Shown: piece after piece, positions 1,207 to 6,779 of the stretch
How positions within the stretch are numbered: the first letter of the stretch is position 1
Layout of the letters: each line of letters opens with the position of its first letter
From: Baekduia soli
GTDB taxonomy: Bacteria > Actinomycetota > Thermoleophilia > Solirubrobacterales > Solirubrobacteraceae
NCBI RefSeq assembly: GCF_007970665.1
Contig: NZ_CP042430.1
Coordinates: 4,836,001 to 4,900,000 of the forward strand
Length of the DNA stretch: 64,000 bases
Direction of reading: 5' to 3'
The notes under the pieces: generated by a model
Databases searched by the model: none
Seen by the model: the letters and a program-made list of their open reading frames with translations, nothing else
What the model was told of the DNA's origin: nothing
Translations under genes and position numbers: made by a program

Positions 1207-2475
1207 CTACGCGACGGCGCCGTCGGCCACGATGGGCCGCCGGGCCCACACCGCGGCGATAACGACGGCGCCCACCCCTGCGACCGCGTAGGCCACGCGC
1301 GGCGACGACGCCGCGGTCAGCAGGCCGCCGACGACGAAGCCGATGCCTGGCGCCACGGCGCCCACGGACTCCAGCAGCCCGGCGGCGCGGGCCTGGTAGG
1401 CGTCGCCCACCGAGTCCTGCAGCGCGGTCATCACCGAGATCCACTGGATCCCGTTGCCGACGCCCCCGACGACGCTGGCCAGGCAGGCGAGCAGGAGCGT
1501 CGGCGAGGCCGCGATCCCCGCATAGCCGACCCCGACGGCCAGCGTGGAGGCGAGCACGAGCACGTGCAGCGACATGTCGCCGGCGCGCGCGAAGACCACC
1601 GACCCCAGGATGACCCCGACGCCCCAGGCGCCGAGCATGACGCCGTAGCCGAGGCTGCTGGAGTGCAGCGTCTCGCGCACGAAGACGACCGAGATCGGCA
1701 CGACGAGCGTGAAGAAGACGATCGCCACGCCCTCCCCGGCGACGAGGCGGCCCGCCGTCGGGTGGCTGCGGACGTGGCTCAGGCCGTCGCGCACCCGGGC
1801 CCGCCACCCCTGGTGGTCGCCGACCACGGCCATCGGCAGGCTCCGGCGCGCGGCGGCCAGCAGCAGGCCCGCGCAGAGGAACGAGCCGGCGTCGATCCAC
1901 AGCGCGGCGTCCACGCCGCCGAAGTGGATGACGACGCCCGCCAGGACGGGCCCGGCCGCGCTCGTGATCGCGTAGGCGACGTTGAGCAGCGCGTTGCCCT
2001 CACGCAGCACGCCGGCGGGCCCGAGCACGCCCGCGACCGCCCCGCGGGTCAGCCCGCGGGCCGTGAGCGCCAGCACGCCGTCGGCGAACGCGAGCGCCAG
2101 GACGCCGGGCAGCCAGAACGCCGTGCTGAGCTGGGCCAGGCCCGCGAACGCCCCGGCCTCCAGGAAGTAGACGACGGGCACGACGCGCCCGATGGCGCGC
2201 TGGTCCAACCCGGCGGTGAGCGCCGGCGAGAGCAGCGCCGGCATCGACTTGGCGGCCAGGAACAGGGCGGTCGTGGCCAGCGCGCTGCCGGTCTGCTGCA
2301 GGACGAGTACGGCCAGGGCCACCACACCGAGCATGTCGCCCAGCCCGTTGAGGGTGTACGAGGCAGCCAGTGGGGAGAACCCGGCAACGCGCAGCGAGCT
2401 CCTCACCGGGCGCAGCTTAGCCACGGATGCGGTCCGACGACCCGCGCGTCGTGCCGCGTCCGAACACCCGCTCAC
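1207..2475 (-). CDS. MFS transporter, 12-helix type
   Basis: The product is 422 residues with about twelve hydrophobic segments and a central basic loop around residues 210-235, as in major facilitator exporters of the Bcr/MdtH/enterobactin-exporter kind. Substrate cannot be read from sequence. The start is uncertain: the longest frame begins with GTG at 2475, only 38 bases from the divergent HD-GYP gene, while GTG codons at 2424 and 2406 lie just before the first helix and would leave room for a promoter. The first about 20 residues are Arg/Ala-rich and probably not translated. It sits 9 bases from the start of the MBL gene on the same strand. Confidence 0.8.
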   Translation of the reverse strand: MSGCSDAARRAGRRTASVAKLRPVRSSLRVAGFSPLAASYTLNGLGDMLGVVALAVLVLQQTGSALATTALFLAAKSMPALLSPALTAGLDQRAIGRVVPVVYFLEAGAFAGLAQLSTAFWLPGVLALAFADGVLALTARGLTRGAVAGVLGPAGVLREGNALLNVAYAITSAAGPVLAGVVIHFGGVDAALWIDAGSFLCAGLLLAAARRSLPMAVVGDHQGWRARVRDGLSHVRSHPTAGRLVAGEGVAIVFFTLVVPISVVFVRETLHSSSLGYGVMLGAWGVGVILGSVVFARAGDMSLHVLVLASTLAVGVGYAGIAASPTLLLACLASVVGGVGNGIQWISVMTALQDSVGDAYQARAAGLLESVGAVAPGIGFVVGGLLTAASSPRVAYAVAGVGAVVIAAVWARRPIVADGAVA

Positions 2476-2513: not shown

Positions 2514-3863
2514 ATGGCGCGTCGGTCCGTGTTTGCGCTGCAGGCAGCGCTCTTCGTGGCGGCGATCACCGCCGCGGTCTTGACCTCCCGTGCGTCCGAC
2601 TGGCACCCCATCGGACTGGTGGTCGGCCTCCTGCCGCTCATGGTCCTCAGCGAGGCGCTGGCGATCGAGACGAAGTCGCTGCGCCTGTCGGGCGGCTTCA
2701 TCGTCGTCGTGCTGGCCACCGCGCTGCTCGGCCCGGCGCCGGCGCTCGCGCTGCAGATGGTCGCCCTGACCGTCGACGCCATCCGGCGCCCGCTGCCCCG
2801 CGACCTGCGCCTCGCCAACCTCTGCTCGGGGTCGGTCTACCCGATCGTCGGCGCGCTGCTGGTCCGGGCCCTGGGCCTGCCCACCGCCAACGACCTCGAC
2901 TTCGCCCTCGGCGTCTTCGCGGTCTTCTTCGTCACCAACACGGTCAACTTCTCGACGATCGCGATCCCGTTCAGCATCACCCACGGGGTCTCGCTGCGCA
3001 AGCAGGTCGTCACGGCGTTCCTGCCCATGCTCCCGGCCGAGGCGCTCGCCGGGGCCCTGACCGTCACGATCGCGGTGACCTACCGCGCCGTCGGAGCCAC
3101 CGCGCTGGCCGCGCTGTTCATCGTCCTGTTCCTCTTCCAGGTCCTCACGCGCGAGCTCCTGCTCTCCCAGCGCCGCGCCGAGGAGCTCGAGACGCGGTCG
3201 ACCCAGCTGGCCTCCCTGCAGGTCGGGGTGCTGAGCGCGATGCTCCAGACGCTCTCGCTGCGCGACCGCATGACCGCGCGCCACTCGGCCGCCGTCGCGC
3301 GCTACGCCCGGGCCATCGCCGCCGAGATCGGCTGCTCGGAGATCGAGCAGGAGCTCGTCCACACCGCCGGCCTGCTGCACGACATCGGCAAGTTCGCGTT
3401 CCCCGACCGGATCCTGCTCGCCAACCGCAAGCTCGACGACGACGACTGGAACATCGTCCGCACGCACCCCTACCAGGGAGCGCGCCTCGTCCGGCGGATC
3501 GACGGCTACGGACCGGTCGCCGAGATCATCCTGGCCCATCACGAGCGCATCGACGGCCGGGGCTACCCCCGTGGCCTCGTCGGCGAGGAGATCCCGATCT
3601 TCGCGCGGATGATCTCCATCGCCGACACCTACGACGTCATGACCGCGCGCGACTCCTACCGCACGCCGGTCCCCCAGGCCGAGGCCTTCGCCGAGCTGCG
3701 CCGCGTCTCGGGCGCCCAGCTGGACGGCGACCTCGTCGAGGTCTTCATCGGCATCCTCGGCCGGCGCGACCTGACGTTCCAGCACACCACCGACGCCGAC
3801 TTCGAGCACGAGCTCGACTTCGACCGCCGCGTGCTGGGCTACTCGCTGCCCCTCGCGGCCTAG
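2514..3863 (+). CDS. Membrane-anchored HD-GYP domain protein, probable cyclic-di-GMP phosphodiesterase
   Basis: The product is 449 residues. Residues 1-212 form about seven hydrophobic segments, a membrane sensor of the MASE kind; a short coiled linker (about 213-235) leads to an HD-GYP domain. The domain shows H-D-I-G-K at 289-293, the metal-site pair H-H at 342-343, G-R-G-Y-P at 348-352 and D-T-Y-D at 371-374. HD-GYP proteins hydrolyse c-di-GMP to GMP through a metal centre. The complete motif set suggests an active enzyme that couples a membrane or extracellular signal to c-di-GMP breakdown. A purine-rich GAAGGGAG lies immediately before the ATG. Confidence 0.88.
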   Translation: MARRSVFALQAALFVAAITAAVLTSRASDWHPIGLVVGLLPLMVLSEALAIETKSLRLSGGFIVVVLATALLGPAPALALQMVALTVDAIRRPLPRDLRLANLCSGSVYPIVGALLVRALGLPTANDLDFALGVFAVFFVTNTVNFSTIAIPFSITHGVSLRKQVVTAFLPMLPAEALAGALTVTIAVTYRAVGATALAALFIVLFLFQVLTRELLLSQRRAEELETRSTQLASLQVGVLSAMLQTLSLRDRMTARHSAAVARYARAIAAEIGCSEIEQELVHTAGLLHDIGKFAFPDRILLANRKLDDDDWNIVRTHPYQGARLVRRIDGYGPVAEIILAHHERIDGRGYPRGLVGEEIPIFARMISIADTYDVMTARDSYRTPVPQAEAFAELRRVSGAQLDGDLVEVFIGILGRRDLTFQHTTDADFEHELDFDRRVLGYSLPLAA

Positions 3864-4674
3864 CGCCCGGCCGCGCGCTCGGCCGCGCCCCAGGTGCGCC
3901 GCTGCGCGCCTGGAAGGCCTCGGGAGGCCCCGCGCGGCACCCGATCGGGCGCCACGACGGCGTCGCGAGCGCATGCGGCGTCCGGCAGGCAACACCGCGG
4001 GGAGCAGGCGAAAGCTGGCTAGGACATCTGTCCAGACAGCGCTGAATACCCCAAAGTGGGGATGGCGCGATGGACGTCTGAACCAGCAAGATGAGCAACG
4101 ACGGAAAGGTCGCGCCGGCTTTTGCAGGGCTCAGGCGCGACCCGACCGCTATTCGTCCATGTGGCTGCAGGGAGCGCAGCCATCCGCAGAGGGGGGTGCA
4201 CACCATGGGCTGGGGCCACTAGATTTCCCACAACGGTTTTGCCAGGAGGCGCCTCGTACGGCGCCTCCTCGCCGTTAAGCGGCGTTGCGACATTCATCTT
4301 GAGGGATCCGGAGGGTCACTGGACGGGTGTTCGACCGGATTACGGTGTCGATCCGAGGGGGCGCGGTGCCCGTGCCTGCTCAGCGCGCCGCGACCCGGTG
4401 GACCGTGCCCGCCTGCGAGACGACGTCGACCCGGCCGGAGCCGCACGCCACGGGCGGCCGCCGCGGCCGCCGGCGTGGTGGCGGTCGCCCCCGTCGCCGA
4501 CCCCGCCTCGCTCGCGGAGGGCTGGGCGCCCGCGGGCCGGGGTCGCGGTCGCTGCCCCACGCGGCGAGCGCGAGGTCGGCGGTGACGGGCAGCAGCGCGC
4601 GGCCGAGCATCGCGGGAGCAGTTGCAGAGCCTCCCCCACACGAGCCGCCTGGCCGGGGTCGGCACAATGCGGGC
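3864..4674. other. 811-base gene-free region with a structured central part
   Basis: No convincing protein-coding gene was found on either strand. All open frames are short, of low complexity, or shadows of pabB. The segment about 3990-4300 is visibly less GC-rich than its surroundings and contains many inverted repeats, described as a separate entry. The part 4300-4674 is again very GC-rich and shows nothing recognisable except the expected upstream region of pabBC. Confidence 0.6.
4014..4276. ncRNA. Candidate structured RNA of unknown class
   Basis: Several perfect inverted repeats nest or follow one another. An outer stem GCTGG (4014-4018) pairs with CCAGC (4083-4087). Inside it lie GGAC/GTCC (4022-4025, 4030-4033), CAGAC/GTCTG (4033-4037, 4076-4080), GCGC/GCGC (4039-4042, 4065-4068) and CCCCA/TGGGG (4049-4053, 4057-4061). 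Then come a 9-bp stem (4108-4116 with 4134-4142), a 7-bp stem (4162-4168 with 4176-4182) and a 9-bp hairpin with a six-base loop (4245-4253 with 4260-4268). I tested it by eye against RNase P RNA, tmRNA, SRP RNA and the common riboswitches and found none of their conserved cores. The strand is undetermined. It lies between an HD-GYP gene and pabBC. Confidence 0.35.
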
Positions 4675-6779
4675 ATGCCCGCCGGTGTCGCCACTGTCGC
4701 CACCGCCCGCGCCGTGCGCATCGGGCTGCCGGGCGACACGCCGGCCCACCGGGCGGCGCTGCTCGTCTCGCAGGACCGGCGACCCGTGGCGCTCACCGGC
4801 GTCTGGGCGGGGGCGGCGGCGATCGTGGCCGGCGAGCCCGTGCGCATCGCGGGCCCCGGCGACGATCCGTTCGCCCTGCTCGACGACCTGCCCGAGGTCG
4901 GCGAGGCGCCCGCGGACTTCGTCGGCGGCGGATGGCTCGGGACGCTGGGCTACGGCCTCGGGCGCCGCCTGGAGGCGCTCGGACCGCCGCCTCCGGCCGC
5001 CGAGCGCCTGCCGGCCGCGGTCCTCGGGTTCTACGACCACGTCCTGCGCCTGGACGCCGAGGGACGGTGGTGGTTCGAGCGCTGTGGACCGACGAGCGCT
5101 CGGCGCAGCTGGAGCAGCGCCTGCAGACGCTGGGCGACCGGCTCCGCGCCGGAGTGGGCGCGCCGCGGCGGGTCCGGACCGGCCGGTGGTCGGCGACGCC
5201 GTCGGCCGCGGGCCATGCACGGGCCGTGGAGGCCTGCCGCGAGCGGATCGCGGCCGGCGACCTGTTCCAGGCCAACCTCGCCCTGCGCCTGCGCGCGACG
5301 GTGTACGAAGGCCGCCCGGCCGACATGTTCGCGCGCGGCGTCGAGGCGCTCGCGCCCGACCGCGCCGCGTTCGTCGGCGACGGCGACCGCGCCGTCGCGA
5401 GTCTGTCGCCCGAGCTGTTCGTCACGCGCCGGGGCGATGAGGTGGCGACGGCGCCCATCAAGGGCACGCGCCCACGGCGGTCGGACCCCGGCGACGACGC
5501 GGCGCAGCGCGCCGCGCTCCGGGCGTCGGCCAAGGACCGGGCCGAGAACGTGATGATCGTCGACCTCATGCGCAACGACCTGGGACGCGTGTGCACGCCG
5601 GGGACGGTCCGGGTCGGCGCGCTGGCCGAGGTCCGCCCGCACGCCGGCGTCTGGCACCTGGTCTCCGAGGTGTCCGGCCGCCGCCGCGCGGGCACCGGCG
5701 ACGCCGAGCTCGTCCGGGCGATGTTCCCGCCGGGGTCGGTGACCGGCGCGCCGAAGCTCGCGGCCATGGACGTCATCTCGGCGCTGGAGAGCACGGAGCG
5801 CCAGGCGTTCTGCGGGGCGATCGGGCTCGCCTCGCCCGTGGCCGGCCTCGAGCTCAGCGTGGCGATCCGGACATTCGAGTTCGACGGGCCTCACGCCTGG
5901 CTCGACGTCGGGGGCGGCGTCGTCGCGGACTCCGACCCGGCCGAGGAGGCGGCGGAGTGCCTCGCCAAGGCGCGACCGCTGCTGGCGGCGCTCGGCGCCG
6001 GGCCGCCGGCGGCCGTGGCGGTCCGTGACGGGACGGTCGGTGACGCGGCGGCGGTGCCGGTGCCGCCGCGGCTGGGCGCCCGGCCGCGGCGGCGCCCCGA
6101 CCCGGCCGCGGGCGTCTTCGAGACGCTCCTGGTCCGCGACGGGATCGCCGTGGCGGCACGGCGCCATCTCGCGCGCCTGGCGGCGAGCGCCGAGGCGCTG
6201 TACGGCCTGGCGCTGCCGAGCGGTCTGGCGGCGCTGGTCGATCACGCGGCCGTCGAGCACGGGGGCCCGTGCCGGCTGCGCGTCCGGCTGGCCGCCGACG
6301 GCGCGGTCGCGCTGGAGGCCGGGCCCCTGCCGTCTCCGGCCGGCCCGCTCGTGCTCGAGCCCGTCTGTCTGCCGGGCGGGATCGGCGCCCACAAGTGGCA
6401 GGACCGCCGGCTCCTGGAGGGGCTCGAGGCGGTCGCGCTCCCGGCCACGGTGCTCCTGGTCGACCTCGACGGCCTCGTGCTCGAGACGGCCCGCTCGTGC
6501 ATGTTCGCGGTCCGGGACGATGAGCTCGTGACCCCGCCGCTGGACGGCCGCATCCTGCCCGGCGTGACCCGCGCGCGCGTCCTCGAGGCCGCCCGGGCGG
6601 CCGGCGTCGCGGCCTCCGAGCGCCCGCTGCACCTCGACGAGCTGCGCCACAGCGATGCGGCCTTCGCCGTCAACGCGCTGCGCGGCGTCCAGCCCGTCGC
6701 GGCGGTGGACGGGACGCACCTCGGGCGACCCGGCGACCGGGTGCGGACGGTCATCGAGCGGTACCCACAGCTGTGGTAG
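4675..6779 (+). CDS. pabB: Fused aminodeoxychorismate synthase component I / aminodeoxychorismate lyase (PabB-PabC), apparent frameshift
   Basis: The N-terminal about 450 residues are PabB, which with a glutamine amidotransferase converts chorismate to 4-amino-4-deoxychorismate. They show P-I-K-G-T-R-P-R, the M-R-N-D-L-G-R block, G-S-V-T-G-A-P-K and a C-terminal G-G-G-V-V-x-D-S-D. The C-terminal about 240 residues are a fold-type IV PLP enzyme like PabC, which releases pyruvate to give p-aminobenzoate; they show G-V-F-E-T-L-L, a lysine in G-A-H-K-W-Q-D and E-T-A-R-S-C. The fusion covers two consecutive folate-pathway steps. The frame changes near 5079 (W-W-F-E followed out of frame by A-L-W-T-D-E); one extra G restores a 701-residue protein. 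Start ATG at 4675; upstream reading has no conserved sequence. Confidence 0.85.

Follow-up and report, generated by a model that had tools for sequence, protein, structure and literature searches.

A candidate five-codon peptide gene behind a structured leader, linked to an HD-GYP gene in Baekduia soli and other Solirubrobacterales

What is encoded in the gap between an HD-GYP gene and pabBC in Baekduia soli? The stretch analysed here, called the window in the following, comprises 64,000 nt of contig NZ_CP042430.1 (positions 4,836,001 to 4,900,000). For this gap, a first-pass annotation made from the letters alone had proposed a possible new structured RNA at 4014–4276, in a stretch of lower GC content without a gene. 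The unit is indeed a structured, covarying RNA new to Rfam, but at the 3' end of the structure it holds a five-codon open reading frame (ORF), MGWGH, which had been missed. Judged by comparison with its relatives, this micro-ORF is the most conserved part of the unit and is very probably translated. The structured part is best read as the 5' leader of a mini-gene, a leader which varies among genera while the ORF persists. Hence, a noncoding RNA is probably not what 4020–4334 represents.

The GC content is 0.58–0.69 across 4000–4350 compared to 0.68–0.88 on both flanks, as the lower value noted before had suggested. The plus strand folds with -121.5 kcal/mol (z -2.85) and none of 200 shuffled sequences folded equally well. 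Stems seen earlier are present (Table 1), and in the innermost one of the leader 9 of 9 bp are paired; the final hairpin has the six-base loop ascribed to it but a stem of 10 instead of 9 bp. Since the minus strand also folds strongly (z -4.0), the strand cannot be told from folding alone. Searches by blastn in relatives yielded four congeneric homologues that are built alike along some 280 nt, with a GGACAUNNGUCC box first, then a hairpin, a long stem with another one inside, one more hairpin and finally two GC hairpins. The conserved unit covers 4020 to about 4334 and reaches beyond the end first assigned to it. Compensating base changes, proposed earlier as a check, were found in the 5' domain of the relatives, where 9 of 32 pairs are altered on both sides (mean of shuffled alignments 2.3, none of 500 as high). 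A covariance model (R1), built from the four homologues with the window held out, retrieves the window at E = 1.7e-12. The supposed novelty held as well: no Rfam family matched the locus at the gathering threshold, in 3850–4400 even a cutoff of E = 5 gave nothing, and the micro-ORF loci in relatives likewise held no known RNA family. A scan of 3860–4420 for sigma-70 promoters and T-run terminators found nothing, but is uninformative at such GC content. Blastn alone reaches only the genus, and short matches in genomes G018, G083, G158 and G035 were treated as chance. In record L024, runs of N at 423–481 and 1254–1304 interrupt the region 3' of the micro-ORF and the wax-ester synthase (WS/DGAT) gene; therefore its 3' part was left out of the comparison.

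In the window and all four congeners, GGGGGTG stands a short distance before a start codon (ATG or GTG), which four further codons and then a stop follow, and the counterparts of MGWGH read MSWRV, MGFRG, MGFKN and MGYKS. In a sixth relative, which belongs to another genus, both the leader and the Shine-Dalgarno (SD) sequence (AAAAGGAG) have changed, yet the peptide encoded is MGFKN. Altogether, 52 distinct micro-ORFs of 5–7 codons and the form M-[GSTAV]-[WFY]-[KR]-x were collected from relatives. They start with ATG or GTG, use all three stops and differ mostly by synonymous or conservative codons (GGC/GGT, AAG/AAA/CGC/CGT, TTC/TTT/TAC/TGG); family f3 contributes, among others, MGFRH, MGYKH, MGWRHG and MTFRTN. 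An SD is retained throughout, although its sequence and spacing vary. Between genera the leaders diverge, while the ORF and the hairpin 3' of it are kept; in the other family this hairpin is followed by a T run at some loci. The second residue belongs to the set G, S, T, A and V in 51 of the 52 (the window peptide was read by hand) and in 24 of 25 hits of a search that left this residue unconstrained.

Beyond the genus, synteny and not RNA similarity was used to extend the search. Micro-ORFs lie within about 450 nt of HD-GYP orthologues in two families of Solirubrobacterales, usually with a neighbouring gene of the major facilitator superfamily (MFS). Their orientation varies: family f1 has loci with the micro-ORF upstream or convergent as well as loci where it follows the HD-GYP gene on the same strand; most f3 loci have it upstream. 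A strict pattern, learned in the genus and then applied to other genera, was run on 399 genomes of the class and hit 12 times, 11 times beside an HD-GYP orthologue (reversed control: 6 hits). The strict form occurs at 25 of 47 Solirubrobacterales HD-GYP loci, one each, compared to a mean of 0.18 and a maximum of 1 in shuffled flanks; two weak hits were found among 33 HD-GYP loci from other phyla. Most of the checked loci without the strict form have a divergent ORF of 5–9 codons at the same position, for instance MAKWPHY or MEPHGK. Paralogous HD-GYP proteins of about 38–53% identity have a micro-ORF of their own at 15 of 20 loci, found with a looser pattern and hence at a higher chance rate (shuffles 2.8, maximum 8). 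In genome G017 three receptors are paired with MGFKF, MGWKM and MGWRN, respectively. MGFKF and MGWKM are encoded in Solirubrobacter soli DSM 22325. An MFS relative is present at 23 of 24 HD-GYP loci and at 41 of 44 micro-ORF loci. From gene order, the constant partners of the unit appear to be the HD-GYP and MFS genes. pabBC is not a constant neighbour, as WS/DGAT follows in the four congeners. We consider the micro-ORF a likely functional partner of the HD-GYP gene.

The product of this gene has the motifs HDxGK and HHExxDGxGYP, which recur in most of the 24 orthologues of the alignment (in a few, the D in the second motif is not conserved), and its HD-GYP domain structurally matches solved HD-GYP structures. 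The N-terminal 222 residues have no match in Pfam. Folded alone, they reach a predicted local distance difference test (pLDDT) score of 92, and the 22 top structural matches of this model are all substrate-binding (S-type) components of energy-coupling factor (ECF) transporters, with Z 8.6–13.3 (next Z 6.2); helical proteins can reach Z of about 13 by chance, but so pure a list is hard to get by chance. The N-terminus is therefore predicted to adopt the six-helix fold of an ECF S-component. S-components are ligand-binding membrane proteins.

Do the peptides follow this domain? Over 44 loci, with peptide similarity scored without the Met, Mantel tests gave r 0.45 between peptide similarity and S-domain identity (none of 5000 permutations as high). 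The partial r remained 0.36 when HD-GYP-domain identity was controlled (reverse partial -0.03) and 0.34 when MFS identity was controlled (reverse partial -0.02). Since these permutations ignore shared ancestry and the S-domain is more variable than the HD-GYP domain, the co-divergence is support, not proof. Still, a conserved short ORF with its SD, the HD-GYP linkage and the co-divergence of peptide and S-domain are all supported by these comparisons.

On balance we lean towards an ultrashort peptide gene, the product of which would be sensed by an S-component/HD-GYP receptor degrading cyclic di-GMP (c-di-GMP). We infer the following course of translation, trimming, export, binding and effect on c-di-GMP. 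In a short transcript, ending in GC hairpins, the folded leader would offer a strong ribosome-binding site to the five-codon ORF. The product would be fMGWGH here and typically M-G-[WFY]-[KR]-x. Methionine aminopeptidase removes the Met when residue 2 is one of G, S, T, A and V, as is nearly always the case here, so that a tetrapeptide is the probable mature form. It would serve as a signal, which the MFS neighbour may export, and be bound by the S-component-like domain; binding would alter the c-di-GMP phosphodiesterase activity of the HD-GYP protein. That the peptide is the ligand of the S-domain we put forward tentatively, with the chances not quite even, and export by the MFS protein is doubtful.

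Several observations weigh against this course. The MFS gene is absent beside 3 of 44 HD-GYP/micro-ORF pairs and was found beside only 2 of 20 more distant HD-GYP paralogues, so that export by it is weakly supported. For the distant HD-GYP paralogue in the genome of the window (L238) no micro-ORF was found. MGWGH itself does not have the basic fourth residue, and the aromatic/basic motif is in part a product of the pattern used for searching, which was derived from the first loci. Furthermore, the S-components known to us bind vitamins or metals, not peptides.

The strong fold, the covariation within the genus and a leader of about 170 nt would also suit a structured regulatory RNA, either a trans-acting small RNA or an orphan riboswitch, with the micro-ORF incidental or tuning RNA stability. 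However, between genera it is the ORF that is kept and not the leader, the downstream gene is not constant, and peptide and S-domain diverge together, all of which makes such an RNA improbable. A leader-peptide attenuator, where ribosome stalling on the micro-ORF would switch the following hairpins and hence the downstream gene, could draw on the alternative hairpins after the micro-ORF and on its position upstream of the HD-GYP gene on the same strand in family f3 and some others. But elsewhere the micro-ORF is often convergent with or downstream of this gene, where readthrough would enter unrelated or antisense sequence, and no same-strand gene is constant directly downstream (WS/DGAT, pabBC and others are found there). 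We regard attenuation as decidedly improbable.

The nearest known gene in form is mccA of microcin C (MRTGNAN), a seven-codon gene with a strong SD and a terminator behind it, served by a dedicated pump (PMC6495379). Common to both are the ultrashort ORF, the strong SD, the hairpin behind and the pump gene in the cluster. This resemblance to mccA (PMC6495379), together with an MFS gene nearly constant for the HD-GYP orthologue group, might point to the precursor of a modified, MFS-exported ultrashort peptide, for which the HD-GYP protein would be a sensor or an unrelated neighbour. Yet the genes described here have 5–7 codons, encode M-G-aromatic-basic and are HD-GYP-linked, and no ThiF/MccB-type gene is near the loci: in 8 genomes PF00899 (ThiF) had no match beside a micro-ORF, and the nearest full-length match in the genome of the window is more than 300 kb away. 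A C-terminal Asn is not conserved either, only few of the 52 peptides ending in N. A microcin C-like precursor is therefore unlikely. ORFs of 2–8 codons can undergo reiterative translation (PMC6495379), and the act of translating the minigene (ribosome cycling, peptidyl-tRNA drop-off) rather than the peptide might be the function. This predicts neither the conservation of residues nor their co-divergence with the S-domain, and we consider it very improbable.

A signal peptide read by its own receptor has parallels among Phr/PapR (RRNPP) systems, in which an active peptide of about five residues is likewise encoded beside the receptor gene and diversifies together with it. The Phr/PapR signals, however, arise by cleavage of propeptides that the cell exports, and their receptors are cytoplasmic tetratricopeptide repeat (TPR) proteins. 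The mini-genes described here encode no propeptide, and an HD-GYP protein in the membrane is proposed as the receptor. Its residues 27–196 share the predicted fold with ECF S-components (BioY, RibU, FolT, ThiT, NikM/CbiM), but at only about 7–17% identity and fused to a c-di-GMP phosphodiesterase domain. With other HD-GYP phosphodiesterases (PA4781, others) the protein has the catalytic motifs and the fold in common; the S-component-like sensor sets it apart. We rate the combination of ultrashort peptide gene and S-component/HD-GYP partner as new in kind, because mccA needs MccB, absent here, and is without an HD-GYP partner, and because the peptide-signal systems known so far start from propeptides and have receptors of other kinds. 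Literature searches of open-access papers found no such system. It is thus conceivable, although we hold it with some reserve, that throughout this order of soil Actinobacteria genes of 5–7 codons directly encode oligopeptide signals, with a particular S-component/c-di-GMP phosphodiesterase receptor for each, as a new signalling system. These signal genes would then be among the shortest known, and to our knowledge the S-component fold would here serve in peptide binding for the first time. Annotation does not pick up genes of five codons, of which very few have been described. Most inputs of c-di-GMP signalling have yet to be found, and peptides co-diverging with a sensor domain make them directly testable with synthetic tetra- and pentapeptides. 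In a 2022 review of c-di-GMP sensory inputs the word 'pheromone' is absent (PMC8846402).

Table 1. Features of the unit and its neighbours in the window.
Feature	Position	Strand	Basis or remark
MFS transporter, possible exporter	1207..2475	-	Pfam MFS_1/MFS_3; H+ antiporter/EntS-like
HD-GYP gene, probable receptor	2514..3863	+	Pfam, motif alignment, structure
S-component-like membrane domain (predicted)	residues 27-196 of HD-GYP protein		structure prediction
HD_5/HD-GYP domain	residues 244-407 of HD-GYP protein		Pfam
5' palindromic box TAGGACATCTGTCCAG	4020..4035	.	almost invariant in congeners
Structured 5' leader	4020..4190	+	fold, model R1 match, covariation
Leader hairpin	4022-4033	+	fold
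Leader hairpin	4046-4063	+	fold
Leader stem around inner stem 4108-4116/4134-4142	4070-4076/4154-4160	+	fold
Leader hairpin	4162-4168/4176-4182	+	fold
Shine-Dalgarno GGGGGGTG, 6 nt 5' of ATG	4191..4198	+	AAGGAG/GGAGG types in other genera
Five-codon ORF ATG GGC TGG GGC CAC TAG (MGWGH*), the mini-gene itself	4205..4222	+	sequence reading, homologues
10-bp GC hairpin, six-base loop TCGTAC, 3' of ORF	4244-4253/4260-4269	+	terminator-like position, without T run
Second hairpin GCCG-TTAAG-CGGC	4271..4283	+	sequence, alignment
3' box TGGACGGGTGTTCGA, inverted relative to 5' box	4320..4334	.	by-eye comparison

pabBC lies next to the unit by accident, not as its partner. As the regulated gene it was rejected because in the four congeners WS/DGAT takes its place, and WS/DGAT as a partner was rejected because in other genera the RNA is missing upstream of its orthologues. 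The wax-ester synthase gene found behind the RNA in the four congeners is no longer present at this place in the window, where 4320–4360 resembles what is left of its 5' end; only paralogues of about 42% identity are left in this genome. pabBC itself (4676–6779) appears split over two frames, the first part in the frame of ORF 4327–5553 and the rest in that of ORF 4122–6779, which suggests a frameshift or a sequencing indel near 5100.

The first arm of the second hairpin behind the ORF could alternatively pair with an upstream ACGG. The 5' box has an inverted counterpart downstream in several genera, and such pairs bracket the mini-gene (4020–4035 and 4320–4334; L046, L047, L059, L100, L104), although an automatic search for box pairs was not significant for the window itself. 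In family f3 the box sequences differ (TGCACAAGTT). These pairs may be operators, promoters or cassette ends. In another genus (L025, 1406–1580, minus strand), a similar box (TAGGACAAACGTCCA ... CTGGGGATGG) lies directly 5' of a genuine c-di-GMP-I riboswitch (RF01051) that itself precedes a pilin-like gene; the box may possibly be a common operator or promoter of a c-di-GMP regulon.
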